Virus record (IMG/VR): IMGVR_UViG_3300042908_001241
Span: 1 to 36,568 of that record
DNA length: 36,568 nt
Strand: one strand, 5' to 3'
From: a virus
Shown here: piece by piece, positions 6,266 through 19,974 of the stretch
Numbering within the stretch: position 1 is the stretch's first letter
How the letters are laid out: the number at the start of each line of letters is the position of its first letter
The notes under the pieces: model-generated
What the model saw: the letters and a program-made list of their open reading frames with translations, nothing else
The model's database searches: none
Told to the model about the DNA's origin: nothing
Program-made: the position numbers and the translations under genes

Positions 6266-6269
6266 AAAC

Positions 6270-6416
6270 ATGAATACTGATGATTCCTATACAATTGTGT
6301 TCACAAATGAAATGCTTAAGTCTATCGGTATAGACACAGATCAAAATGATATTGATGTAAAAATAGTAATAGAAAATGGAACTATTAAAGTTTTGAGAAA
6401 AGAAAATGTTGTTTGA
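6270..6416 (+). CDS. Small protein with a weak AbrB/MazE-like look, 48 aa
   Basis: A 48-residue ORF that fits between two neighbours with a 4-base gap upstream. The segment MLKSIGIDTDQNDIDVKIVI followed by ENGTIKVLRK recalls one SpoVT/AbrB swapped-hairpin half (index: LGI, DVxV, ENGxIxV). The similarity is weak and no toxin partner is adjacent, so an antitoxin role is not supported. Codon use resembles the neighbours. Confidence 0.5.
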   Translation: MNTDDSYTIVFTNEMLKSIGIDTDQNDIDVKIVIENGTIKVLRKENVV

Positions 6417-6525
6417 CAACTATGTTTGTGCCTTTTTTCAGTATGTATGTTATGCAACAGTATATTTACTTATCATCAAACTAATAAAAGAAATATTAAA
6501 TGAGGATTCTGATAAATTTTTTTGA
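6406..6525 (+). CDS. Putative single-TM small membrane protein, 39 aa
   Basis: The ATG lies within the last codons of the previous ORF (11-base overlap). The product has one hydrophobic helix (about residues 7-26, Tyr/Cys/Phe/Val-rich) followed by KLIKEILNEDSD, a charged cytoplasmic-type tail. No SD is obvious, so expression would depend on coupling. Tiny TM proteins are common in phages, but this one could be a chance ORF. Confidence 0.4.
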   Translation: MLFDNYVCAFFQYVCYATVYLLIIKLIKEILNEDSDKFF

Positions 6526-6579
6526 GTGTTGAACGAATAACAATATGTGTAAGGAATACATAACCCAAGGAGAAAAGAT

Positions 6580-6963: not shown

Positions 6964-7194
6964 ATGGAAATTGGAAGTTTGGTTTTTGCTAGAAAGTTGA
7001 ATGAAGCTTTTACTATTTATACCGATTCTGGTGATATAGAGGTTACCATTAAAGAAATAAATACATCTTCAAATCAAGTTAGACTGCGTGTTAGAGCACC
7101 AAAAAACATTAAAATCATGCGAGATAATGCAGTTGATTTAAAACCAAAAGATATATTGTTCACACCAACAATTCCAAGATCGGAGAAAAGATGA
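6964..7194 (+). CDS. csrA: CsrA/RsmA-family translational regulator
   Basis: 76 residues, close to the 55-75 of bacterial CsrA. The N-terminal strand is SLVFARKLNEAF where CsrA has LILTRRxGE, so Arg10/Lys11 stand for the RNA-contacting Arg6/Arg7. The hallmark NQVRLRVRAPKNIKIMRD (about 37-54) aligns with NQVRIGVxAPKxVxVHRE, including the Arg equivalent to Arg44. CsrA dimers bind GGA motifs in hairpin loops near SD sites and repress or stabilise mRNAs. This copy therefore could control phage or host mRNAs. It is coupled by ATGA to the DUF1501 gene and sits behind a strong hairpin, suggesting autoregulation (inference). Confidence 0.88.
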   Translation: MEIGSLVFARKLNEAFTIYTDSGDIEVTIKEINTSSNQVRLRVRAPKNIKIMRDNAVDLKPKDILFTPTIPRSEKR

Positions 7195-8468
7195 ACAGAA
7201 GACATTTTATAAAACATACGGCTGGAATTTCCGCACTTTCTTTTGTGGATAAAGTTAAGGCACAAGAAGAAACACTTAAAAAGTCTGGAAAAAAGCTTAT
7301 TGTATTGTGGATGGGGGGTGGTCCTAGCCATATGGACCTTTGGGATTTAAAGCAGGGTCAAGCAAATGGCGGTGAATTTAAACAAATACTTACTTCAGCG
7401 AATGGAATTAGTATTAGTGAAGTTCTTCCAACAATCGCTTCTCAGTTTCACAATTTAGTTGCTGTTCGATCTCTTGTGACTAACGAAGGAAGTCATGAGA
7501 GAGGAACCGTTTTAATGAATACTGGGCATCAACCAAGCGTTGTTGTGCAGTATCCATCCATTGGATCGGTAACATCTTCGCTTTTAACATCAAAAGAACT
7601 ACCCTTACCAGGATTTATTGGTATTGGAAATTCAGCACAAAGAATTGGGCCAGGATTTTTAGGAACAAACCTTGCACCATTCACCGTTCAAAATGCTGGA
7701 ACTCCACCAGAGAATATTAAAGCACCAAAGGAAATAGATGATGAAGAAAGACTTAGACGAAGACAAAGACTGTTTTATACATTGGAAGACGATTTTTCGG
7801 AAAGAATTGCACCTCACATTAAAAATAGTGTGGCTAGAGAAGCTATGGGCAATCATGCTCAATCTCATTCTAATATCTATGGCAAAGCCTTTGATCTTAC
7901 ATTATCTCCGCTAAAAACAATCTTTGAACTAAAAGACGAAAATCCTAAAACGATTGAGTCTTATGGTGGTAGAGGAAATAACTTTGGAATGGGTTGTCTT
8001 CTTGCTAGAAAGTTAATTTCTAAGGGGGTTAGCTGTGTACAAATCGACCTGGGTGGATGGGATAATCATAGCAATATCTTTACTACTATTAGGAATGGGA
8101 ATGGGAATCGTCTTGATATGGGCATGGGATATCTGGTCAAGGACTTGGTAGATATGGGTATGTGGAAAGACACCGTAGTTATGTGGATGGGAGAGTTTGG
8201 TCGTACACCTAAGATTAATCAGAACGCTGGTCGTGATCATTGGGCTAGATGTTGGTCTGTGGTTCTTGGGGGTGGTACTATCAAAGGTGGACAGGTTTAT
8301 GGTTCTACAACCTCTGATGGCATGGACATTAAAGACAAGCCTTGCAGCATTTCAGATGTTTATGCTACAGTGTACAAAGCTTTGGGTTTAGACCCAATGT
8401 TTCAAATTAGGGATAATTTAGGGCGACCAATACCTATATCAGAAGGAAAACCGTTAGATATATTTTGA
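7191..8468 (+). CDS. DUF1501-family protein (sulfatase/alkaline-phosphatase-like fold) with Tat-like leader
   Basis: 425 residues. It begins with a twin-arginine-type leader (MNRRHFIKHTAGISALSF), then the DUF1501 hallmarks: WMGGGPSHMDLWD (40-52), the GSHERG segment (100-105), DLGGWDNHSNIF (286-297), GEFGRTPKI (334-342), GRDHW (347-351) and a C-terminal LGRPIPISEGKP. DUF1501 proteins have a sulfatase/phosphatase-like metal-hydrolase fold, are probably exported, and are greatly expanded in Planctomycetes. The enzymatic role is not established. It looks full length and undamaged. Finding one in a phage-like operon with csrA (4-base overlap) is unusual and is the strongest hint of a planctomycete host. 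Confidence 0.92.
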   Translation: MNRRHFIKHTAGISALSFVDKVKAQEETLKKSGKKLIVLWMGGGPSHMDLWDLKQGQANGGEFKQILTSANGISISEVLPTIASQFHNLVAVRSLVTNEGSHERGTVLMNTGHQPSVVVQYPSIGSVTSSLLTSKELPLPGFIGIGNSAQRIGPGFLGTNLAPFTVQNAGTPPENIKAPKEIDDEERLRRRQRLFYTLEDDFSERIAPHIKNSVAREAMGNHAQSHSNIYGKAFDLTLSPLKTIFELKDENPKTIESYGGRGNNFGMGCLLARKLISKGVSCVQIDLGGWDNHSNIFTTIRNGNGNRLDMGMGYLVKDLVDMGMWKDTVVMWMGEFGRTPKINQNAGRDHWARCWSVVLGGGTIKGGQVYGSTTSDGMDIKDKPCSISDVYATVYKALGLDPMFQIRDNLGRPIPISEGKPLDIF

Positions 8469-11981: not shown

Positions 11982-12570
11982 TGAAATTATGTTTAATCAG
12001 AGAGTACCCAGTTTGCTTGTTGTTGACAACTTTTACAAAGATCCAGATTGGATAGTTGAAAAAACAAAAGATTTTGATTTTAAAGAAGAAAACAAATTCT
12101 ACAAAGGAAAAAGAACAACAGGTTGTTTGTTTCCTTATGTAAAAGAAGAATTTGAAAAGTTATTGCAAGTACAAATAGTAGATTGGTTAAATCAACCAAT
12201 GAATGGTGTTTTTCAAATAACATCTGGAAATGACCCATTGGTATGGCATAGTGATTCACAAGATTATGCAGCAGCAGTATACTTAACCAAAGATGGTCCA
12301 ACAAATGCTGGCACATCATTTTGGAAAGATAAAAAATATGGATGCAGAAGACCACCAAGCCATCCGTTAGAAAATAAACAAGGAATAAATGATTTAGACA
12401 TATACACACAATACAACTTATTAAATGAAGACAATTGGGAATTAGTGGACAGGGTTGGATCTGTATACAATAGACTGGTTCTTTGGGATGGAAAAATGAT
12501 TCATTCAGCCACAATGTACGGTGAGTTTTCTAGGTTGGTTCAACTGTTCTTTTTTAATGTGAGAAAATAA
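11974..12570 (+). CDS. DUF6445-like 2OG-Fe(II) oxygenase
   Basis: 198 residues from the ATG at 11974; an in-frame ATG at 11941 lacks an SD, whereas GAGAGG (11958-11963) fits 11974. It has His92/Asp94 (WHSD), distal His177 (MIHSAT) and Arg187 (SRLVQLFFFN), the iron and 2-oxoglutarate ligands of a double-stranded beta-helix oxygenase. The pattern of an N-terminal VVDNFYKDPDWIVE and central LTKDGPTNAGTSFW matches the DUF6445-type phage/marine oxygenases. It overlaps the upstream gene by 8 bases and the GT2-methyltransferase gene by 1, which suggests a link to glycan or protein modification. Substrate unknown. Confidence 0.8.
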   Translation: MDDEIMFNQRVPSLLVVDNFYKDPDWIVEKTKDFDFKEENKFYKGKRTTGCLFPYVKEEFEKLLQVQIVDWLNQPMNGVFQITSGNDPLVWHSDSQDYAAAVYLTKDGPTNAGTSFWKDKKYGCRRPPSHPLENKQGINDLDIYTQYNLLNEDNWELVDRVGSVYNRLVLWDGKMIHSATMYGEFSRLVQLFFFNVRK

Positions 12571-13826
12571 TGCCATACTTTTCTATAGTTACACCAACAC
12601 ACAATACACAGTTTCTTGCTAGACTTTCTCGCTCTATAGCAAGGCAAACATTTAAAGATTTTGAATGGGTGATTGTTCCAAATGGAAACGCCAACATTGA
12701 TATTGAATCTTTGGCTTTTAAACCAAGGGTTGTAGAATCAAAAAACCCTAATTCAAAATTAATTGGACTCTTTAAAAAAGAAGGGTGCATGGCATCAAAT
12801 GGAAGTGTAGTAGTTGAAGTTGATCATGATGATGAATTAACAGAAGATTGCTTGCAGGAATTATATAACACATTTAATCTTGAATCAGATGAACCAATTG
12901 ATTTTGCATATTCGAATTGTGCAGAAATAGACCCTGATGGGAAACCATTTGTTTATTCTGATTATTATGGTTGGAGAAATAGACCTTTTAAGTATCACGG
13001 AAAAGATCTTCTAGAATTAATATCTTTTGATTCAACTCCAGCATCATTTTCTAAAATTTGGTTTGCCCCAAATCATGTTCGTGCTTGGAAAAAATCGTTT
13101 TATGAAAAGATTGGTGGTCATGATGAAACGATGGAGGTTTTAGATGATCACGATATTCTTTGTAAAACATACATACAAGGAAATGTTAAACATATAGATA
13201 AGTGCTTGTATATTTACTATAAGCACAAGAACAATACCTGTTACGGTGAAAAGAATGCTTTCATTCAAGAAGAAACATTAAATATTCATGATAGGTATAT
13301 CTATTCATTAGCTGAGAAATGGTGTGATCTTAATGGTTTGCTTAAGATAGACCTTTGTGGTGGTTTTAATCCTCCAAAGGGGTACAAGTCGGTAGACATG
13401 CAGAACGCAGAAATTATACACGATTTAAACGATCCTTGGCCTTTTAAAGATGGCGAAGTGGGATTGATAAGGGCACATGATGCACTTGAGCATTTAAAAG
13501 ATCCAATTCATGTGATGAAAGAAGCTTATAGATGCCTATGTCCAATGGGTTGGTTTTTAACACAAACTCCATCTACAGATGGCAGAGGTGCTTTTCAAGA
13601 TCCAACACATATATCATTTTGGAATAGCAACAGCTTTTGGTACTACACAAAAAGAGATCAGGCAAAATATATTGGAACACCAGTAAGGTTTCAAGCAAAT
13701 AGAATTAAAAACTTTTATCCAAGCGAGTGGCATAAGACACACAATATTCTTTATGTAAAAGCCGATATGTTAAAAGTTCCAGATGAAATATTAAAAATGA
13801 GAGTACCAGGAGAGGTTTCAATATGA
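12570..13826 (+). CDS. Bifunctional GT2 glycosyltransferase + SAM methyltransferase
   Basis: 418 residues. Residues 1-235 are a GT-A glycosyltransferase family 2 domain: FSIVTPTHNTQFLARLSRSI at the start and the metal/donor motif VDHDDEL (84-90). Residues about 255-418 are a class I methyltransferase: motif I DLCGGFN (261-267), acidic loop KSVDMQ, and RAHDALEHLKDP (301-312). Both domains look intact with no frameshift between them. The enzyme presumably transfers a sugar and then methylates it, or acts on two steps of one pathway. It is coupled to the oxygenase before it and the DUF6165 gene after it (ATGA). Confidence 0.9.
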   Translation: MPYFSIVTPTHNTQFLARLSRSIARQTFKDFEWVIVPNGNANIDIESLAFKPRVVESKNPNSKLIGLFKKEGCMASNGSVVVEVDHDDELTEDCLQELYNTFNLESDEPIDFAYSNCAEIDPDGKPFVYSDYYGWRNRPFKYHGKDLLELISFDSTPASFSKIWFAPNHVRAWKKSFYEKIGGHDETMEVLDDHDILCKTYIQGNVKHIDKCLYIYYKHKNNTCYGEKNAFIQEETLNIHDRYIYSLAEKWCDLNGLLKIDLCGGFNPPKGYKSVDMQNAEIIHDLNDPWPFKDGEVGLIRAHDALEHLKDPIHVMKEAYRCLCPMGWFLTQTPSTDGRGAFQDPTHISFWNSNSFWYYTKRDQAKYIGTPVRFQANRIKNFYPSEWHKTHNILYVKADMLKVPDEILKMRVPGEVSI

Positions 13827-14188
13827 TACATAATTCATTTATTGGCACTGGTGAATTAATTGATAAAATAACAATTTTAAAAATAAAATGCTCAGTAATA
13901 AATAATGAAAATAATATTAATCAATTAGAAAGTCTTTTAACTATTTATAATCAAATGCCAGAAAATTTAAGGATTAAGATTATTGAATTTGAAGAAGAGC
14001 TTTTTTATATAAATAAAGTAATATGGAAATATGAGAATATTGTAAGATCAAAAGTTAACGATGAAGAAATTTTAAAAGCTGCAAAATCTATATTTGAGTA
14101 CAACGACAAAAGAAACAAATTAAAAAAGTTAATAGACGAAGAAACAATAAGCGGTTTCTTTGATGAAAAAATGCATGAAATAAATTAA
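13823..14188 (+). CDS. DUF6165-like protein
   Basis: 121 residues, all-helical. The start GTGELIDKITILKIK and later VIWKYENIVR ... YNDKRNKLKK match the DUF6165 pattern (GELxDKITIL, LWxxEDxIR, NDxRAxLK). That family is found near glycosyltransferases and lipopolysaccharide genes in bacteria; its function is unknown. It is coupled to the GT2-methyltransferase (ATGA at 13823) and converges tail to tail with the DUF5672 gene (4-base overlap of the 3' ends). Confidence 0.75.
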   Translation: MIHNSFIGTGELIDKITILKIKCSVINNENNINQLESLLTIYNQMPENLRIKIIEFEEELFYINKVIWKYENIVRSKVNDEEILKAAKSIFEYNDKRNKLKKLIDEETISGFFDEKMHEIN

Positions 14189-14862
14189 TTTTTCCATTTT
14201 TCTTCAAGACTATTGTAAATTTTTTCTCTAAAATCAAAGTGTTTTTCTATAGAATTACATGCAGCCAAATGAAATCCAAAAGAGTCATCTTTTGTTTTTG
14301 ACCAATGTTGTTCAACTGAAAACTTACAAGCCGTATCAATATCTGCATATTTGAAACCAAGATCTATCATTCTCTTATATATTGTACAGCACAAGAAAAC
14401 ATCTTCAGCATGATCACAATATAGGTCGCCAATAATTTTTGATGCTTGATCCATAAATGCTTTTGATCTTAAAGAAAATCCACCGTTGCCAACATGGTTT
14501 ATGCCATTTGGAGAATGAGGCCAAGTAGCACCAATGTAATCGTATTTTAAAAAATCATCTGTCCATTTTTCTGTTTTATAAATTAAACCATCGTGTTGAA
14601 CAATTAATGCAAATTTTGTTTCTATGTATTTTGGAAATTCTTTAATCATAAAATTATCGTATTCTCTAGCAGACGATATTTTATTTATGTTTACATATTC
14701 AATATCATATTCTTTTAACTTATAATGTTTTATGTCTGAAAAATAAATTGCTTTATTAAAAATAATTCCACAATTTGAAAAACAATGAATTATTGATTTT
14801 GCAGCATTGTTATAGTTCTTGCAATCGACTATACAAATTGTTATATCGTTTAAATTAATCAA
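14185..14862 (-). CDS. DUF5672-like glycosyltransferase, TTG start
   Basis: 225 residues from TTG at 14862, directly behind TTGGAG. Upstream in-frame codons to 14961 would reach into the ribosome-binding region of the divergent gene at 14939 and look like non-coding. The core FALIVQHDGLIYKTEKWTDD, YDYIGATWPH and VGNGGFSLRSKAFM is the DUF5672 hallmark: a GT-A-like domain with QHDG where classical enzymes have DxD, and the NGGFSLR acceptor loop. DUF5672 occurs in viral and bacterial glycan clusters. Its neighbours support a sugar-transfer role. It is the first gene of the minus-strand glycan genes. Confidence 0.82.
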   Translation of the reverse strand: MINLNDITICIVDCKNYNNAAKSIIHCFSNCGIIFNKAIYFSDIKHYKLKEYDIEYVNINKISSAREYDNFMIKEFPKYIETKFALIVQHDGLIYKTEKWTDDFLKYDYIGATWPHSPNGINHVGNGGFSLRSKAFMDQASKIIGDLYCDHAEDVFLCCTIYKRMIDLGFKYADIDTACKFSVEQHWSKTKDDSFGFHLAACNSIEKHFDFREKIYNSLEEKWKN

Positions 14863-14938
14863 AATACTCCAATCAATTAAATAATTTGACAGATGTACGA
14901 ATATTAATATATTACATATTCTAAAGGAGTTAAACAAC

Positions 14939-15148
14939 ATGAAAGTTATAATAAAAGACATTGGTGGAAATTATTTTTGCAGAGAACCAGAAGTTGGATT
15001 AACAAATGTTAAAAAAAATGCCTATGTTTTTGATTGTTATAATGAAGAACATTCAAAATTAATATTAGAAAAAACAAAAATGTTTATATCTAATACTGAT
15101 TTAACATTAGAATTTGTTGAAAAAACAGAAATAAACTTAAGTTTTTAA
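14939..15148 (+). CDS. Hypothetical protein, 69 aa
   Basis: The ATG is 8 bases behind AAAGGAG (14924-14930). 69 residues with an alternating beta/alpha pattern (KVIIKDIGGNYFC, then NVKKNAYVFDCY) and no motif known to me. The upstream gap carries CGAATA (14898-14903) and a TATATTAC-like AT box, perhaps the promoter. Confidence 0.6.
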   Translation: MKVIIKDIGGNYFCREPEVGLTNVKKNAYVFDCYNEEHSKLILEKTKMFISNTDLTLEFVEKTEINLSF

Positions 15149-15156
15149 AGGAAAAA

Positions 15157-15627
15157 ATGAACATATTTGTATTAGATAAAAACCCAAAACAAGCTGCTGA
15201 GTGGCATATGGACAAACACATAGTTAAAATGCCTTTGGAAACAGCACAAATTTTATGCACCATTCTTAATGGTCATGGCGTTATGACACCTTATAAATCA
15301 ACTCATGTTAATCATCCTTGCACACTTTGGGCAGGAAAAAGTATGGGAAATTTTATTTGGTTGTGCGAACTAGGGATACATCTTTGTGATGAGTATTCTT
15401 ACAGATATGAAAAAGAACATAAGTGTAAAAGAATTATAGAAGAATGTTTGACATTCGCATGTAAAATACCAAATATTGAGATGACAGAATTTGTTCAAGC
15501 TATGCCAGAAGAAATAAAGTCAAAAGATCCAATAGAGTCATATAAAATGTATTATATAAAATTTAAATCCCATATAGCAAAATGGAAAAAAAGAGAGATC
15601 CCAAATTGGTACAATGTGATATTATGA
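15157..15627 (+). CDS. Phage-conserved protein of unknown function (MNIFVLDxNPxxAAxxHxDKH family)
   Basis: 156 residues. The N-terminus MNIFVLDKNPKQAAEWHMDKH, KMPLETAQIL, STHVNHPCTLW and CELGIHLCDEYSYRY are features I recognise from a family common in T4-like and cyanophage genomes, usually annotated as hypothetical. The invariant Asp/His pairs (DKHIVK, HVNHPC) suggest a metal or catalytic site. A glycosylase-like role has been suggested for some phage relatives but I cannot confirm it. It starts 8 bases after the previous stop, behind AAAGGA, and overlaps the next by an ATGA. Confidence 0.72.
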   Translation: MNIFVLDKNPKQAAEWHMDKHIVKMPLETAQILCTILNGHGVMTPYKSTHVNHPCTLWAGKSMGNFIWLCELGIHLCDEYSYRYEKEHKCKRIIEECLTFACKIPNIEMTEFVQAMPEEIKSKDPIESYKMYYIKFKSHIAKWKKREIPNWYNVIL

Positions 15628-15812
15628 AAATTAAAAAAAATAGGCAAAAAAAAGCCAGACGAATAATGATATTGGCATCTATTAGAATGTCAAAAAGCAT
15701 TGGAGTAAAGTTCAATAGAGTTTGTATGGAAGAAATAAGAGATGTTTATATGGATATGTTTGGAGTGGATAGTTTAATCAAACGATTTGATATAGCAAGC
15801 ATTGTTGCCTAA
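15624..15812 (+). CDS. Small basic protein, 62 aa
   Basis: I chose ATG 15624, which overlaps the previous stop (ATGA); an in-frame ATG at 15582 would overlap by 46 bases. 62 residues starting with a very Lys/Arg-rich segment (KIKKNRQKKARR), then a helical region. Its stop overlaps the 3' end of the minus-strand methyltransferase by 4 bases. Nucleic-acid binding is possible from charge only. Confidence 0.5.
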   Translation: MKIKKNRQKKARRIMILASIRMSKSIGVKFNRVCMEEIRDVYMDMFGVDSLIKRFDIASIVA

Positions 15813-16372
15813 TTGTTTTTTTTTCTTTTGTCTACAATAAATAATATATCATCAGCCCTATTTTTTATATCTCTAAGATCATGAACATAAATGTTATCAA
15901 TTAAATCTTCATGAACATGTTCTATTAATGTGTCAATCCAAGAAATTTCTTGAACATCTTCTATTATAATAATTCCATTTTCATTTAATTTACTTTGATA
16001 ACCATCTAAAAATGAAGTCATGCTTTTTAAGGTATGAGGACCATCATCAATAATTAAATCAAAAATATTTTCTGGAATAGAGCTTATAAATTTTTCATCA
16101 TAAGCATCTCTATGCAATATTTTCAATCTTTCTTTTTCTTTAAAAATATTATTTTTATTATTTATATCTATTCCATAAATTGTAGCATTCGAAAAATAAT
16201 CTTTCCACAATAATATACTTCCACCATGATCAATACCTATCTCTAAAATATTTTTAGCAGACTCTTGTATTTCATGAAATAGTTTAGAGTAAATTTCATC
16301 AATATAAGAATGAACCGTGTTTTTATCGGTGTAAAAATGTTTTGAACTATAAATTTCAGATAATGTTTTCAT
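15809..16372 (-). CDS. Class I SAM-dependent methyltransferase
   Basis: 187 residues. NILEIGIDHGGS (motif I, about 42-53), then IYGIDINN, FDLIIDDGPHTLKSM (motif IV-like) and GIIIIEDV complete a Rossmann methyltransferase of the Methyltransf_24/cephalosporin-hydroxylase-like type seen in glycan clusters. It is the last gene of the minus-strand group that starts at 18503, so it probably methylates a sugar or related group. AAAGGT on the minus strand serves as SD. Substrate unknown. Confidence 0.85.
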   Translation of the reverse strand: MKTLSEIYSSKHFYTDKNTVHSYIDEIYSKLFHEIQESAKNILEIGIDHGGSILLWKDYFSNATIYGIDINNKNNIFKEKERLKILHRDAYDEKFISSIPENIFDLIIDDGPHTLKSMTSFLDGYQSKLNENGIIIIEDVQEISWIDTLIEHVHEDLIDNIYVHDLRDIKNRADDILFIVDKRKKNN

Positions 16373-16377
16373 TGTTG

Positions 16378-16770
16378 TTACCTTTTTGGCGACTTGGTTT
16401 TAATTCCAACTTTATTGTATTCGCTACGCATTTTTGGATTATCATCTATGGCGAAAAGAACTTTTTCTTTAATGCTTTCAGCATGTTTTTTCTTAGATTC
16501 ATTTTGATCTTTTGGATTACCACCAATGTTATTCATCATTAATCGATTGTATTTAACTCCAGCTTTTTTAAGTGCTTCTACTGTGTCTTTCCTATCTTTT
16601 TCTGGTCTGCCTGTTATTATATAGATTTTATTTTGTTTTGATAACTCATTAACATAATCGACCATTTTTTTAATTGGATATATACCATTACGCAAAATAG
16701 TGTTGTCAATATCGACAATTACTACATTTGCATTAGATAAGTACAGTTGTATGTCTTCTATTATGCCCAT
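16378..16770 (-). CDS. HAD-superfamily phosphatase (T4 Pnkp phosphatase-like)
   Basis: 130 residues with all four HAD motifs: DIDNT (20-24), TGRP (53-56), a lysine in the KKKHAESIK region (about 93-101), and IDDNPKM (108-114). The TGRPEKDR loop and small size resemble the phosphatase domain of T4 polynucleotide kinase and similar phage phosphatases that remove 3'-phosphates from nucleic acids. In this minus-strand glycan operon, dephosphorylation of a sugar-phosphate is the alternative. There is only a 5-base gap to the methyltransferase gene and a 91-bp gap upstream. Confidence 0.85.
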   Translation of the reverse strand: MGIIEDIQLYLSNANVVIVDIDNTILRNGIYPIKKMVDYVNELSKQNKIYIITGRPEKDRKDTVEALKKAGVKYNRLMMNNIGGNPKDQNESKKKHAESIKEKVLFAIDDNPKMRSEYNKVGIKTKSPKR

Positions 16771-16861
16771 ATTAATTTATTGTAAACATGTTTGTAAAAT
16801 TTGAATTTTTCATTTATACATTTCCTTAATATTTATATACACCAAAAAAACAATTGTAATT

Positions 16862-17440
16862 TTAATTGTGTCTACCTATTATCTTATCAAAAAACCCAAT
16901 TTTTAAATTATTTTTTAAACAATATTTTTCTACATCTTTTATAAAATAAGAATCTGCCATATATGATGAACTCCATTTTATTTTTTTTGCTATTTCTGTT
17001 TTAACCATAGCATTTAATGTATCTATATTACCAATATTGATTTCGTTTTTTTGAGGAACAATTTTAAAAATATTGTGAGATATTTTAAATATTAACATGC
17101 CGTAGTCTCTGTTATAAATTTCATCATGTGAAAATGAAAAATAGTCTTCTTCAATAACATTGTCATCGTCTAACCATATTGTGTAATCTCCAGTGCATTT
17201 TAAAATCATTGCATTTCTTTGAACATTTCCATAATTTTGATTTTTTGGTTTTTCTGTAAAATTGTAAGTAAAACGACTATCGTTCATATTTAACACACAA
17301 CATTGATCATCCTGACTATATCCATCAGAACAAACAAAAACTTCATAGTTATCATAATCTTGATTTATAACACTGGTCATTGCACGATTAAGCAAAGCAA
17401 CTCTTTTGTATGTTGGAATTATTACTGAAAACTTTATCAT
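16862..17440 (-). CDS. GT2-family glycosyltransferase
   Basis: 192 residues with the GT-A family 2 start FSVIIPTYKRVALLNRAM, the QDYDNYEVFVCSDG strand and the donor/metal motif LDDDN (90-94). The short length (usual GT2 domain about 220-300) suggests a minimal catalytic domain without a membrane anchor. It ends six bases downstream of the neighbouring GT-like gene in the same operon. Confidence 0.88.
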   Translation of the reverse strand: MIKFSVIIPTYKRVALLNRAMTSVINQDYDNYEVFVCSDGYSQDDQCCVLNMNDSRFTYNFTEKPKNQNYGNVQRNAMILKCTGDYTIWLDDDNVIEEDYFSFSHDEIYNRDYGMLIFKISHNIFKIVPQKNEINIGNIDTLNAMVKTEIAKKIKWSSSYMADSYFIKDVEKYCLKNNLKIGFFDKIIGRHN

Positions 17441-17446
17441 TTTTAA

Positions 17447-18082
17447 TTAAGTTCTCTCTAAATAGTTTTTAAAAATTGGAAGCTTATTGTTGTTTACAAT
17501 TTCATTTTTATAGCCTTCTTTTGTTAAAATTATTCCAAAAATTCTTTCAAAAGCACAAGAATCTATTTTATTTTGTGGTAACAAATTTTCTATTCCGTTT
17601 TTATAAATAATATTTAAAACTGTTTTTTTTGCAAACAATATAGATCCAACAATTGTTATAAATTCTTCTGGTATTTTAAACCATTTTGTTTGATTTAAAT
17701 ATTTTATTGTTGATTCAACATGAATATCTTCGCATCCAATCCAATCATAAACATAATCATAAACATATACATTGCCATCTAATTTTTTTATGTTTTCTTT
17801 TAATTCGCAAGAATCATGAATAAGTAAAAATCTTTTGTAATCAAAATTTTTATACGCATATAACAATGCACCAGCTTCATAATTTTTATTTTTAATATCT
17901 GCCACAATTATTTTTTCAGAAGAAATATTAAAATGATATTTTATTTTGCTATCAGAATCAACAATTAAAATTTTGTCATCATTCTCCATAAGGTCAGATA
18001 TGCTTTTTACACATTTTTTTAAATGATCTAAATGATTCAATGTAATTATTTTGCATGGTATTACATAAAGTATATCATTCAT
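17447..18082 (-). CDS. Glycosyltransferase-like protein (GT-A fold)
   Basis: 211 residues. The N-terminal ILYVIPCKIITLNHLDHLKK and KILIVDSDSK look like the nucleotide-binding half of a GT-A enzyme, with a later AGALLYAYKNF and LLIHDSCELKEN in place of a DxD motif. It is the kind of divergent transferase found in phage and bacterial capsule-type clusters. The weak metal motif means activity is not certain. It overlaps the cytidylyltransferase gene by 8 bases, so co-translation is likely. Confidence 0.65.
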   Translation of the reverse strand: MNDILYVIPCKIITLNHLDHLKKCVKSISDLMENDDKILIVDSDSKIKYHFNISSEKIIVADIKNKNYEAGALLYAYKNFDYKRFLLIHDSCELKENIKKLDGNVYVYDYVYDWIGCEDIHVESTIKYLNQTKWFKIPEEFITIVGSILFAKKTVLNIIYKNGIENLLPQNKIDSCAFERIFGIILTKEGYKNEIVNNNKLPIFKNYLERT

Positions 18083-18503
18083 TTATTAACCTTTTTTTAA
18101 TTTCAGTTGTTGATATTGTTTTTGTGTATGGAACATACATCATATATATGTTGTTATAATCTAACCAATCTTGTGTAAAACCCATTTGTTTATAATAGTC
18201 TTTTTTTGCCCAATCAGAACCAACTATAATGATGTTTGGATTAACTTGAAGTATTGCAATTTTTGAATCTTCATTTCCAATATTTGGTATTACAAAATCA
18301 ACATATTTGCAAGAAAGTAAAACGCTTTTTCTTTCTTCATATGAACAAGTTGGACTTATTCCTTTATATGATTTGATAAATGAGTCTGTGTTTAGTGAAA
18401 CAAAAACTAAACCATTATTTCCAGATATTTCTTTACATATTTTCAAAAAATTTGCATGGCCAGAATGGAATAAATCAAAAGTTCCACCAGTATATATTTT
18501 CAT
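18075..18503 (-). CDS. TagD/PCYT-like cytidylyltransferase
   Basis: 142 residues. GGTFDLFHSGH (6-16) contains the HxGH CTP-binding motif, SYEERK (54-59) is the second conserved segment, and ISTTEIKKR (130-138) the ISTTxI signature. These identify a nucleotidyltransferase related to glycerol-3-phosphate cytidylyltransferase (TagD) and ethanolamine/phosphocholine cytidylyltransferases. It makes a CDP-activated alcohol or sugar alcohol for transfer by neighbours. As first gene of the minus-strand operon it may supply the donor used by the transferases downstream. The acceptor (glycerol-P, choline-P, other) cannot be told. Confidence 0.9.
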   Translation of the reverse strand: MKIYTGGTFDLFHSGHANFLKICKEISGNNGLVFVSLNTDSFIKSYKGISPTCSYEERKSVLLSCKYVDFVIPNIGNEDSKIAILQVNPNIIIVGSDWAKKDYYKQMGFTQDWLDYNNIYMMYVPYTKTISTTEIKKRLINE

Positions 18504-18584: not shown

Positions 18585-18860
18585 ATGAAATACCTTTATG
18601 AAATATGGATAAGGGTAGAAGGAAAAAATAAAAAAAATAAAGCTTCTATAGATAAAAATGGAAGTTTTTGTATTGCACTATGTGCTTCATCAAATAAAGA
18701 GGCAATTCTTATTTTGCAAGAGGTATTTTTAAGTTGTGATAAAAGACCAATAGGAAATAAAAAGAAAATAAAACACTTTAGGTTGAAAGACGGTTGCTCT
18801 AAGTATATATTTCTTCTATGTAAGGAAAATGTCGAAAGTTATAAAAGAGAATGTGATTAA
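18585..18860 (+). CDS. Hypothetical protein, 91 aa
   Basis: 91 residues, ATG behind TTGGAG. It has Lys-rich patches (EGKNKKNKAS) and beta segments (YEIWIRVEG, FCIALCASS, KYIFLLCKEN) with 5 cysteines in total. The beta-hairpin-like start resembles the small protein at 24025 (FEVWATEPNG...), but the similarity is slight. It lies just before the structured RNA region. Confidence 0.6.
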   Translation: MKYLYEIWIRVEGKNKKNKASIDKNGSFCIALCASSNKEAILILQEVFLSCDKRPIGNKKKIKHFRLKDGCSKYIFLLCKENVESYKRECD

Positions 18861-18861
18861 A

Positions 18862-19169
18862 AGCAACTGCGTTAACAATTCAAGCATACGGTTCTTCCGC
18901 AGTTTTTATACCGAAATGAATCACATCACCAGGGGATAACCCCAAGGATTGCCAGAGAGTAGCCAAACTCTCAACAGGGTGGCACGAAATAGTTTAGAAA
19001 GATTATTATACTAGAATTTGAGTGACCACTTCTCATACTAGACCTGATACTTTACAAGTACCTTCTTTCTAATGTCCTGTTTGGTCAAAATTTTATAACA
19101 AACTGCTTGTTCTAGGAACTTGCTGGTAGTAGTACTATCAGGGAGAAGAAGTGGCTTATTGCCTATAAG
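18862..19169. ncRNA. Large structured RNA candidate (about 300 nt, class unknown)
   Basis: This is the one stretch over 300 bases without a good gene, and it is clearly richer in G+C than its surroundings. Nested helices: AACTGCG/CGCAGTT (18865-18871 with 18898-18904); GGGG/CCCC (18932-18935 with 18940-18943); TGCCA/TGGCA (18950-18954 with 18980-18984) enclosing GAGAGT/ACTCTC (18955-18960 with 18967-18972). A long arm is built from CCACTTC/GAAGTGG (19026-19032 with 19148-19154), CCTGATA/TATCAGG (19043-19049 with 19136-19142), CAAGT-A-CCT/AGG-A-ACTTG (19055-19063 with 19114-19122) and GTTTG/CAAAC (19079-19083 with 19099-19103). A final CTTAT/ATAAG hairpin sits at 19155-19169. The loop at 18962-18966 could pair with 19081-19085. 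Strand cannot be fixed; the pseudoknot would favour plus. It overlaps the 3' end of the convergent gene by 7 bases. Confidence 0.7.
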
Positions 19170-19447
19170 TAATCTGCTGTTATATCGGAAAAAAACCAAA
19201 CAACAGTTTTTTCAATAAATCCTTTAGAATTAAAATCATTTACATTTTTACCAATAATTGATAGCAATGAAATAAATTCAGATTCTGATATAATACCATT
19301 TAAATAAGATTTTCTTGTTATTTTTAACAGTAAATCAAAAGTTTCATTTGAACAAATGTCGTTTTTTGATATAGAATTAAGTATTGTTATTGAGTTTGAA
19401 AGTTTTTTTGTTAACTTTTTACAAGCATAGTCTATTCTATTTTTCAA
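19163..19447 (-). CDS. Hypothetical protein, 94 aa, TTG start
   Basis: 94 residues, start TTG at 19447 behind AAGGA on the minus strand. Helical, Asn/Ser/Lys-rich, with no recognisable motif; one Trp-Phe pair near the end. It is divergent from the GNAT gene with only 23 bases between starts, so its promoter would lie inside that gene. Its 3' end touches the structured RNA region. Confidence 0.5.
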   Translation of the reverse strand: MKNRIDYACKKLTKKLSNSITILNSISKNDICSNETFDLLLKITRKSYLNGIISESEFISLLSIIGKNVNDFNSKGFIEKTVVWFFSDITADYL

Positions 19448-19470: not shown

Positions 19471-19974
19471 ATGGCTAAAAAGAAAAAACAAATTTCAAGT
19501 GAAATAAAACTTCTTTTAAAAAAGAACCTAAGATCTATAGTAGAAATAGAAAAGAAAAATTGCACTATAGAAGATCCAGATTTTGGAGAAATGGTTTCAA
19601 AAAAAGCTTGGAATTCATCTGATTTTGTTGATTTTGTTAAAAAAAAGAACACATACACTTACACAATAAGTGAAGGTTTAATAATTGTTGGATTTTTACT
19701 TTTTGAAGTTAAAGAAAACGAATTGTTAATTGAAAGAATATGTATAGACAAAGATTTTAGAAGATCAGGTTTTGGTAAAGATTTTTTAGATTTTATATAT
19801 AACAAAAAATACAGAAATAAAATTGTTTTTTATTGTAAAGAAGATGATGTTAATACAATTAAATTTTTTAAGAAAAATGACTTTACAGCCAATTTAGAAA
19901 AAAATTACTTTGGAATAGATGATGATGCGATTAAGTTTACGAAGGAGGTTTTTTATGAAGAAAACAAAAAATAA
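19471..19974 (+). CDS. GNAT-family N-acetyltransferase
   Basis: 167 residues from the ATG at 19471 (GAGG SD at 19461-19464); the same frame is open further upstream without an SD. The acetyl-CoA motif A is IERICIDKDFRRSGFGKDF (about 87-105, R/Q-x-x-G-x-G/A as RRSGFGK). Then NKIVFYCKEDDVNTIKFFKK fits motif B, all of RimI/GNAT type. A basic N-terminal leader (MAKKKKQIS...) is unusual and may be an acceptor-binding extension. Substrate could be an amino sugar in the glycan pathway or a protein N-terminus. Confidence 0.85.
   Translation: MAKKKKQISSEIKLLLKKNLRSIVEIEKKNCTIEDPDFGEMVSKKAWNSSDFVDFVKKKNTYTYTISEGLIIVGFLLFEVKENELLIERICIDKDFRRSGFGKDFLDFIYNKKYRNKIVFYCKEDDVNTIKFFKKNDFTANLEKNYFGIDDDAIKFTKEVFYEENKK

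Follow-up and report, generated by a model that had tools for sequence, protein, structure and literature searches.

A compact RNA with three pseudoknots, probably a new noncoding class, in what seems to be one family of large phages

The stretch of DNA analysed here (the window) is an IMG/VR virus record of 36,568 bases. In it two genes converge on a gap of 302 bases (18861-19162), bounded by a plus-strand ORF at 18585-18860 and a minus-strand ORF at 19163-19447. The features of the locus are as follows.

18585-18860, plus strand: ORF of 91 aa, pI 9.4; its stop codon lies directly before helix P1 of the RNA
18861-19154, plus strand: predicted structured RNA core, 294 nt; its ends are set by the outermost supported helices
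19163-19447, minus strand: convergent conserved ORF, 92-96 aa; its stop adjoins the 3' end of the RNA; seven relatives are 43-89% identical to the window copy
19471-19974, plus strand: GNAT acetyltransferase, counted from its ATG (Pfam Acetyltransf_7/10/1)

An initial annotation had described the gap as less AT-rich than its flanks, and so it is: the GC fraction is 0.394, whereas the window averages 0.303 and the sequence immediately outside the gap about 0.20-0.28. Among sliding windows of 294 bases, 139 of 3628 match or exceed the element in GC, those lying over the element being counted in. The same annotation took it for the only gene-free stretch of about 300 bases, which is incorrect, as a second, AT-rich gap of 314 bases (6266-6579, GC 0.268) also lacks a main ORF. 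Elsewhere the window encodes a 425-aa DUF1501 protein (7191-8468, plus strand; E 2.7e-91), of a family unusual in phages; glycosyltransferase, methyltransferase-like and nucleotidyltransferase-like genes lie to the left of the 91-aa ORF (12570-18503). The convergent ORF carries ESEF and GFIEK motifs, and its window copy matches no Pfam or PHROG family.

The gap had been read as a large, multi-helix RNA of no catalogued class between convergent genes. The RNA and its setting survive re-examination; the fold as drawn in detail, like the uniqueness of the gap, does not. No Rfam family reaches its gathering threshold anywhere in the window, and relaxing the search to E up to 10 gave only weak matches far below the cut-offs, both in the region itself and in two diverged homologues (L030 and L041). 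ARAGORN reports no tRNA or tmRNA in the window; tmRNA, RNase P RNA, 6S RNA and SRP RNA are without a match in either Rfam or ARAGORN. Folding energy gives no signal on either strand of the single sequence: on the plus strand z is -0.7 for 18862-19169 (23 of 100 shuffles fold as well) and -0.5 for 18861-19156 (61 of 200), and on the minus strand -1.6 (6 of 100). As the single sequence folds no better than its shuffles, the stems picked out in the initial annotation are by themselves no proof; the evidence comes from homologues, and judged by sequence comparison the structured RNA element is real.

The RNA is carried by 39 IMG/VR contigs besides the window, phages of 206-221 kb included. An exact 17-base pattern led to 12 contigs, all true; six near relatives, compared base by base, show 0-2 differences in 18861-19154, in surrounding alignments that are 89-96% identical. 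A search with the 91-aa protein returned 18 loci, diverged ones included, with the RNA 3' of the ORF in 18 of 18 (one cut by a contig end). An RNA pattern found 31 contigs, 30 of them true and one (L046) false; two further patterns recovered the identical 30, one exactly and a looser one with five chance matches in addition. An ORF profile search gave 31 loci. Contig ends fall inside the RNA in L007/L022, which is the ORF contig beyond these 30, and in L044/L061. A search with the GNAT family added eight contigs (L136-L143), two of them of 206 and 221 kb, and a covariance model built without these (R1) detects the RNA in all eight, at 75 bits (E 6.6e-20) in L136 and 64 bits in L140. The L136 RNA is 44% identical to that of the window and 51% to that of L030 over the alignment, and rises to 92 bits with a corrected nested-structure model.

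The RNA appears as a single copy, with one strong match per record in 23 of 24 records (the 24th is the false match L046) and in 5 of 5. Weak second matches in G014, G025 and G026 (E 0.27-0.49) and a match in G031 (18.8 bits, E 0.05) were taken as chance. A pattern scan of bacterial genomes produced 16 matches, none with a convincing model match (best E 1.1); counted by phylum, the three phyla covered gave 0 of 395, 0 of 398 and 0 of 296 genomes (1,089), a weak negative obtained with strict filters and no positive control. DNA searches of NCBI phage and plasmid records found nothing, or only brief matches with E no better than 0.5. Literature listings, with little subscription content among them, showed no description of such an RNA.

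Absence of covariation in homologues would, on the terms of the initial annotation, have counted against its reading; the outcome is the opposite. An unbiased scan for stacked covarying pairs was run on 14 distinct full-length sequences with 100 column-shuffled controls. Five runs have at least two double-substituted pairs (null mean 0.75, maximum 3), and two have at least four (null 0), namely P11 with six and P5 with four; runs with at least three occur at most once in any shuffle. The scan also lists P3 (two double-substituted pairs) and P4, P1, P8 and P10 (one each). There are 17 runs with one such pair, where shuffles give 8.4 on average and 19 at most; these runs are thus not above chance, and P1, P4, P8 and P10 depend for their support on the wider alignment. 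Two scan runs with at least two double-substituted pairs (columns 154-157/209-212 and 87-90/225-228) are absent from the final structure. RNAalifold, applied to seven sequences, missed P3, P4, P9 and P11 and chose another partner for 19043 onward; the scan replaced it.

The final alignment draws on 18 sources and holds 16 distinct sequences; the two RNAs cut by contig ends, and copies identical over the first 300 bases, were left out before counting, and gaps had been moved by hand in some rows of an earlier helix count. Over the 16 sequences, 12 helices comprise 70 pairs: 97.6% of 1105 cells are paired, and 41 pairs have changed on both sides. Not one of 500 shuffles scores as high on any of the five measures used, and sliding the partners gives at most eight double-changed pairs. 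Because the alignment was made to fit the nested helices, it is biased towards them; P2, P8 and P10 lie outside the alignment model, yet show one, two and four doubly changed pairs. Misfits come mainly from L041 and L140, in part as register shifts in P8, P9 and P10; in the window, mismatches lie at the ends of P11 and P9. Read on the plus strand there are 19 G-U cells against 7 A-C cells, an excess that favours this strand. The parts of the RNA, all on the plus strand and in window coordinates, are these.

18861-18863 and 18865-18871 with 18898-18907: P1, hairpin with a large loop; 100% of cells paired, 4 of 10 pairs with double change
18889-18891 (P1 loop) with 18911-18913: P2, pseudoknot; 100% paired, 1 of 3 with double change
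18892-18896: UUCUU, single-stranded in the P1 loop; identical in 18 of 18 aligned rows, L136 and L140 included
18928-18931 with 19082-19085: P3; 2 of 4 with double change, both from L041; poorly aligned in L136 and L140
18932-18943: P5, hairpin GGGG-AUAA-CCCC; 4 of 4 with double change
18945-18949 with 19074-19078: P4; 3 of 5 with double change
18950-18954 with 18980-18984: P6; 3 of 5 with double change, all from L136/L140; invariant in the lineage of the window
18956-18960 with 18967-18971: P7, hairpin; 3 of 5 with double change, all from L136/L140
18961-18966: AGCCAA, P7 loop; identical in 18 of 18 rows
18994-19002 with 19064-19072: P11; 9 bp in the window and up to 12 in relatives, 9 of 12 with double change; the strongest run of the scan
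19011-19014 with 19038-19041: P9; 4 of 5 with double change
19019-19022 with 19032-19035: P9a; 2 of 4 with double change
19043-19049 with 19136-19142: P10, pseudoknot outside the alignment model; 4 of 7 with double change
19026-19031 (P9a loop) with 19149-19154 (3' end): P8, pseudoknot outside the alignment model; 2 of 6 with double change

The diverged L136 RNA re-forms P1, P4, P6, P7, P8, P9, P9a, P10 and P11 by compensatory change: its P11 is AAUAGUAAAU/AUUUACUAUU, its P9 UUGAG/CUCAA, its P10 CCUAGAU/AUCUAGG and its P8 ACCCCC/GGGGGU. It keeps the usual letters in P2 and P5; the double change in P2, from C-G to A-U, is found in L041 only. Comparison of the aligned sequences shows a 5' hairpin with an H-type pseudoknot (P1/P2), followed by a stacked stem (P3, P5, P4) that leads to a junction with the P6/P7 hairpin and the long helix P11; it likewise shows a P9/P9a hairpin, and two long-range pseudoknots, P10 and P8, that anchor the 3' end to the interior.

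Several stems of the earlier fold reappear here: homologues support CCACTT/AAGTGG (19026-19031 with 19149-19154), CCTGATA/TATCAGG, GGGG/CCCC, TGCCA/TGGCA and AGAGT/ACTCT. The tip GTTTG/CAAAC fares otherwise, CACAC or CGCAC standing there in 10 of 14 aligned relatives. A loop-loop contact had been drawn between 18962-18966 and 19081-19085; 19082-19085 pairs instead with 18928-18931, with two compensatory changes, and the loop-loop version that was counted (18963-18967 with 19080-19084) is possible in 69 of 70 cells, never covaries and is broken in L041. Nor do the stems simply nest, as had been supposed, the 3' end being tied in by two long-range pseudoknots; the revised fold differs from the earlier one in its three pseudoknots, P2, P8 and P10, and in the 9-12 bp helix P11, which had been missed.

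One way to understand an element that fills the gap between convergent genes is as a bidirectional terminator, or as a DNA-level element such as a border at which the variable upstream gene island recombines. Gene content on the left side of the 91-aa ORF does vary even among close phages (the upstream parts of L021, L024, L030 and L058), L030 and L058 differing there though their terminase regions are 99% identical, and the left homology border between phages often falls near the start of the ORF. The L030 and L058 groups also have nearly identical RNAs beside 91-aa ORFs that are about 45% identical, which suggests, from these alignments, recombination near the ORF/RNA junction. However, the 41 doubly changed pairs, the three pseudoknots and the preference for G-U over A-C bespeak selection on RNA; the element lies between co-directional genes in other phages; and the window locus has no intrinsic-terminator-like site. 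Such an element is thus a very improbable account of the whole. At L136, too, neither a promoter nor a terminator was found; the one promoter candidate in the window, a 10-of-12 site inside the ORF at 18783-18811, is not convincing, counts being near chance (9 against 6.6 in shuffles).

To the right of the RNA, the recurrent neighbours in the lineage of the window are a cupin gene (in some phages), the GNAT gene and a small ORF that looks Zn-ribbon-like by eye; the convergent ORF of 92-96 aa is the right-hand neighbour in most loci listed, L025 being an exception. The GNAT gene is the neighbour common to this lineage and the 221-kb phages, the L136 protein being 39-40% identical to that in G006, G008, G009 and G010. 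In L136-L143 the arrangement is inverted: the RNA lies on the strand opposite the GNAT gene and starts about 60 bases from its start codon. A methyltransferase gene begins 4 bases after P8 in L140, and none does in L136. The 221-kb phage contig G025 has a second GNAT block, with a GNAT 77% identical and the methyltransferase in place; an unfiltered model search found no RNA in that stretch (best 6.3 bits). The two copies of the block (GNAT / Zn-ribbon-like / HNH / 121-122 aa; L150, G025:C1:191500-196500, and L151) are 82.5% identical over 1186 bases, with the RNA beside one only. Downstream of its GNAT gene L136 encodes a 101-aa HNH protein, and its minus-strand segment 944-1624 matches the C terminus of arginine-tRNA-protein transferase (PF04377, E 1.4e-7).

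All carriers seem, from their shared genes, to belong to one phage family. The terminase of G009, which is the phage of L030, shares 65% identity with those of G025 and G026; G006 and G008, the contigs nearest the window among those searched, gave no terminase match, so that membership of the window rests on the shared RNA, ORF and GNAT. Against 50,697 NCBI phage records the terminase has no near relative, identities being 24-29% among the matches listed. If the carriers are indeed one family, counts of linkage do not represent independent events.

A second perspective supposes that the RNA is a cis-acting translational leader. P8 pairs the G-rich 3' strand, which would be the ribosome-binding site of the next gene, with the P9a loop; folding, perhaps with a ligand or protein, would hide the start. 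That would fit 11 of the 16 distinct RNAs, in which a gene starts 4-8 bases after P8 (10 cupin, one methyltransferase) and the 3' helix strand of P8 could serve as its ribosome-binding site, as in translation-controlling leaders and riboswitches: AAGGGG stands about 8 bases before the cupin ATG in 10 distinct RNA types, GGGGG stands 4 bases before the methyltransferase ATG in L140, and the P8 pairing is preserved by compensatory changes. The window is not among these cases. Together with L024, L041 and L025 it has AAGUGG and no plus-strand gene directly after (a convergent gene instead, or in L025 the GNAT gene about 95 bases on), yet among the relatives of the window the RNA is almost invariant. 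L136 keeps an ATG at this place, but no ORF of at least 50 aa starts from it. Unlike the target of a leader or riboswitch, the downstream gene is not fixed and may be absent, the RNA persisting with none, and the paralogous methyltransferase/GNAT locus does without the RNA. A leader is rather unlikely as an explanation of the RNA, though it is the chief rival reading.

The 91-aa ORF suggests a third possibility, an RNA-protein pair, in which the RNA would be complexed with this basic protein or, across the whole family, with the GNAT acetyltransferase. In the lineage of the window the linkage is strict: the RNA is found directly 3' of the ORF at 31 of 31 ORF loci (two cut by a contig end) and the ORF at all 30 RNA-pattern loci, despite the divergence of the ORF to about 45% between phages with near-alike RNAs. 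Five variants of the ORF have pI 9.2-9.7, and GNAT lies near the RNA in both lineages. Against this, a pI of at least 9 is not rare, being shared by 11 of 51 other window ORFs listed; another copy of GNAT stands without an adjacent RNA; and the linkage, seen at a single locus of a single phage family, may reflect synteny and nothing more. Searches of Pfam, PHROG and PDB gave nothing significant for the ORF (best PHROG E 0.011; ribosomal L38e E 0.57), and its AlphaFold models from two jobs (pLDDT 75 and 56) disagree and have no significant structural match. A resemblance to ribosomal LX/eL20 in the first model (Z 4.4) was dropped, four of five models having pLDDT below 51 and the second job disagreeing. 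The ORF was not found in G025 or G026, and in L136-L143 none adjoins the RNA. In the lineage of the window the RNA may form a complex with the 91-aa protein, but this cannot be the general mode. The 206-221 kb phages carry the RNA without the ORF; as an explanation of the RNA, pairing with either protein is unlikely.

Comparison with known RNAs places the element closest in kind to GOLLD and ROOL, likewise large, pseudoknotted, covariation-supported phage RNAs whose function is not known. Those two form homo-oligomeric complexes. GOLLD often exceeds 800 nt, both RNAs often lie near tRNA islands, and the function of both is still given as not known, according to PMC12286853. The present RNA is about 295 nt long, has no Rfam match at gathering threshold or at E up to 10 (window, L030 and L041), and ARAGORN finds no tRNA in the window or in 13 of 13 related loci, the loci only being covered.

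The crossing helices P11 and P10 resemble in outline the core of a group I intron. Such introns are laid out around a crossing of their own P3 and P7, with the letters of the guanosine site in P7. No such letters are seen in the present RNA, which also has no Rfam match and lies between complete ORFs, with no exons. Omega RNAs of TnpB and IscB, HEARO and RAGATH-18-derived RNAs share with it a position beside or behind an ORF; the likeness to omega RNAs stops there, as there is no TnpB- or IscB-like nuclease among the flanking proteins tested, no Rfam match and, in close relatives, no hypervariable guide-like 3' stretch, and the 101-aa HNH protein of L136 is far below IscB size. In type III toxin-antitoxin systems a tandem-repeat RNA lies upstream of an endoRNase toxin; here the RNA lies behind, not before, the 91-aa ORF, which has no significant family match. 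GOLLD, ROOL, an intron, an omega RNA and a catalogued riboswitch were accordingly rejected on the Rfam and locus-context tests. On this comparative evidence the element is taken to be a new class of RNA within a kind already known, the large pseudoknotted phage RNA.

What recurs across these settings is the RNA itself. The alignments show it maintained in phages that lack the 91-aa ORF, and with no one gene fixed downstream of it, and its independence is illustrated from both sides, by L136-L143, with the RNA and no adjoining 91-aa ORF, and by the paralogous methyltransferase/GNAT locus, with no RNA. That the fold is kept with or without the ORF, and before a cupin gene, a methyltransferase gene or nothing on its strand, argues for a free-standing RNA that acts in trans. 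Probably, then, the element represents a new noncoding RNA class, about 295 nt long, read from the plus strand and present as a single copy in large phages, free-standing and trans-acting, with two candidate binding loops. In such a scheme the RNA would be transcribed during infection as a free-standing molecule. It would form a compact scaffold that works in trans; its invariant loop sequences, UUCUU in P1 and AGCCAA in P7, would be candidate sites shown to a host or phage partner, which would be bound, recruited or sequestered by the RNA.

To our knowledge, phage RNAs as large and complex as this are few. This one is smaller than GOLLD and ROOL and has a three-pseudoknot fold backed by comparison, and its size suits cryo-EM. 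Nature supplies variants that have or lack the 91-aa ORF and that have or lack a downstream gene, together with a paralogous locus devoid of the RNA, and this set makes the function of the RNA directly testable. We lean, with a little more than even confidence, towards a new, compact, triple-pseudoknotted RNA that would be a core part of a jumbo-phage family, serving during infection as an independent trans-acting scaffold, decoy or ribozyme in which UUCUU and AGCCAA would be the active or binding sites.
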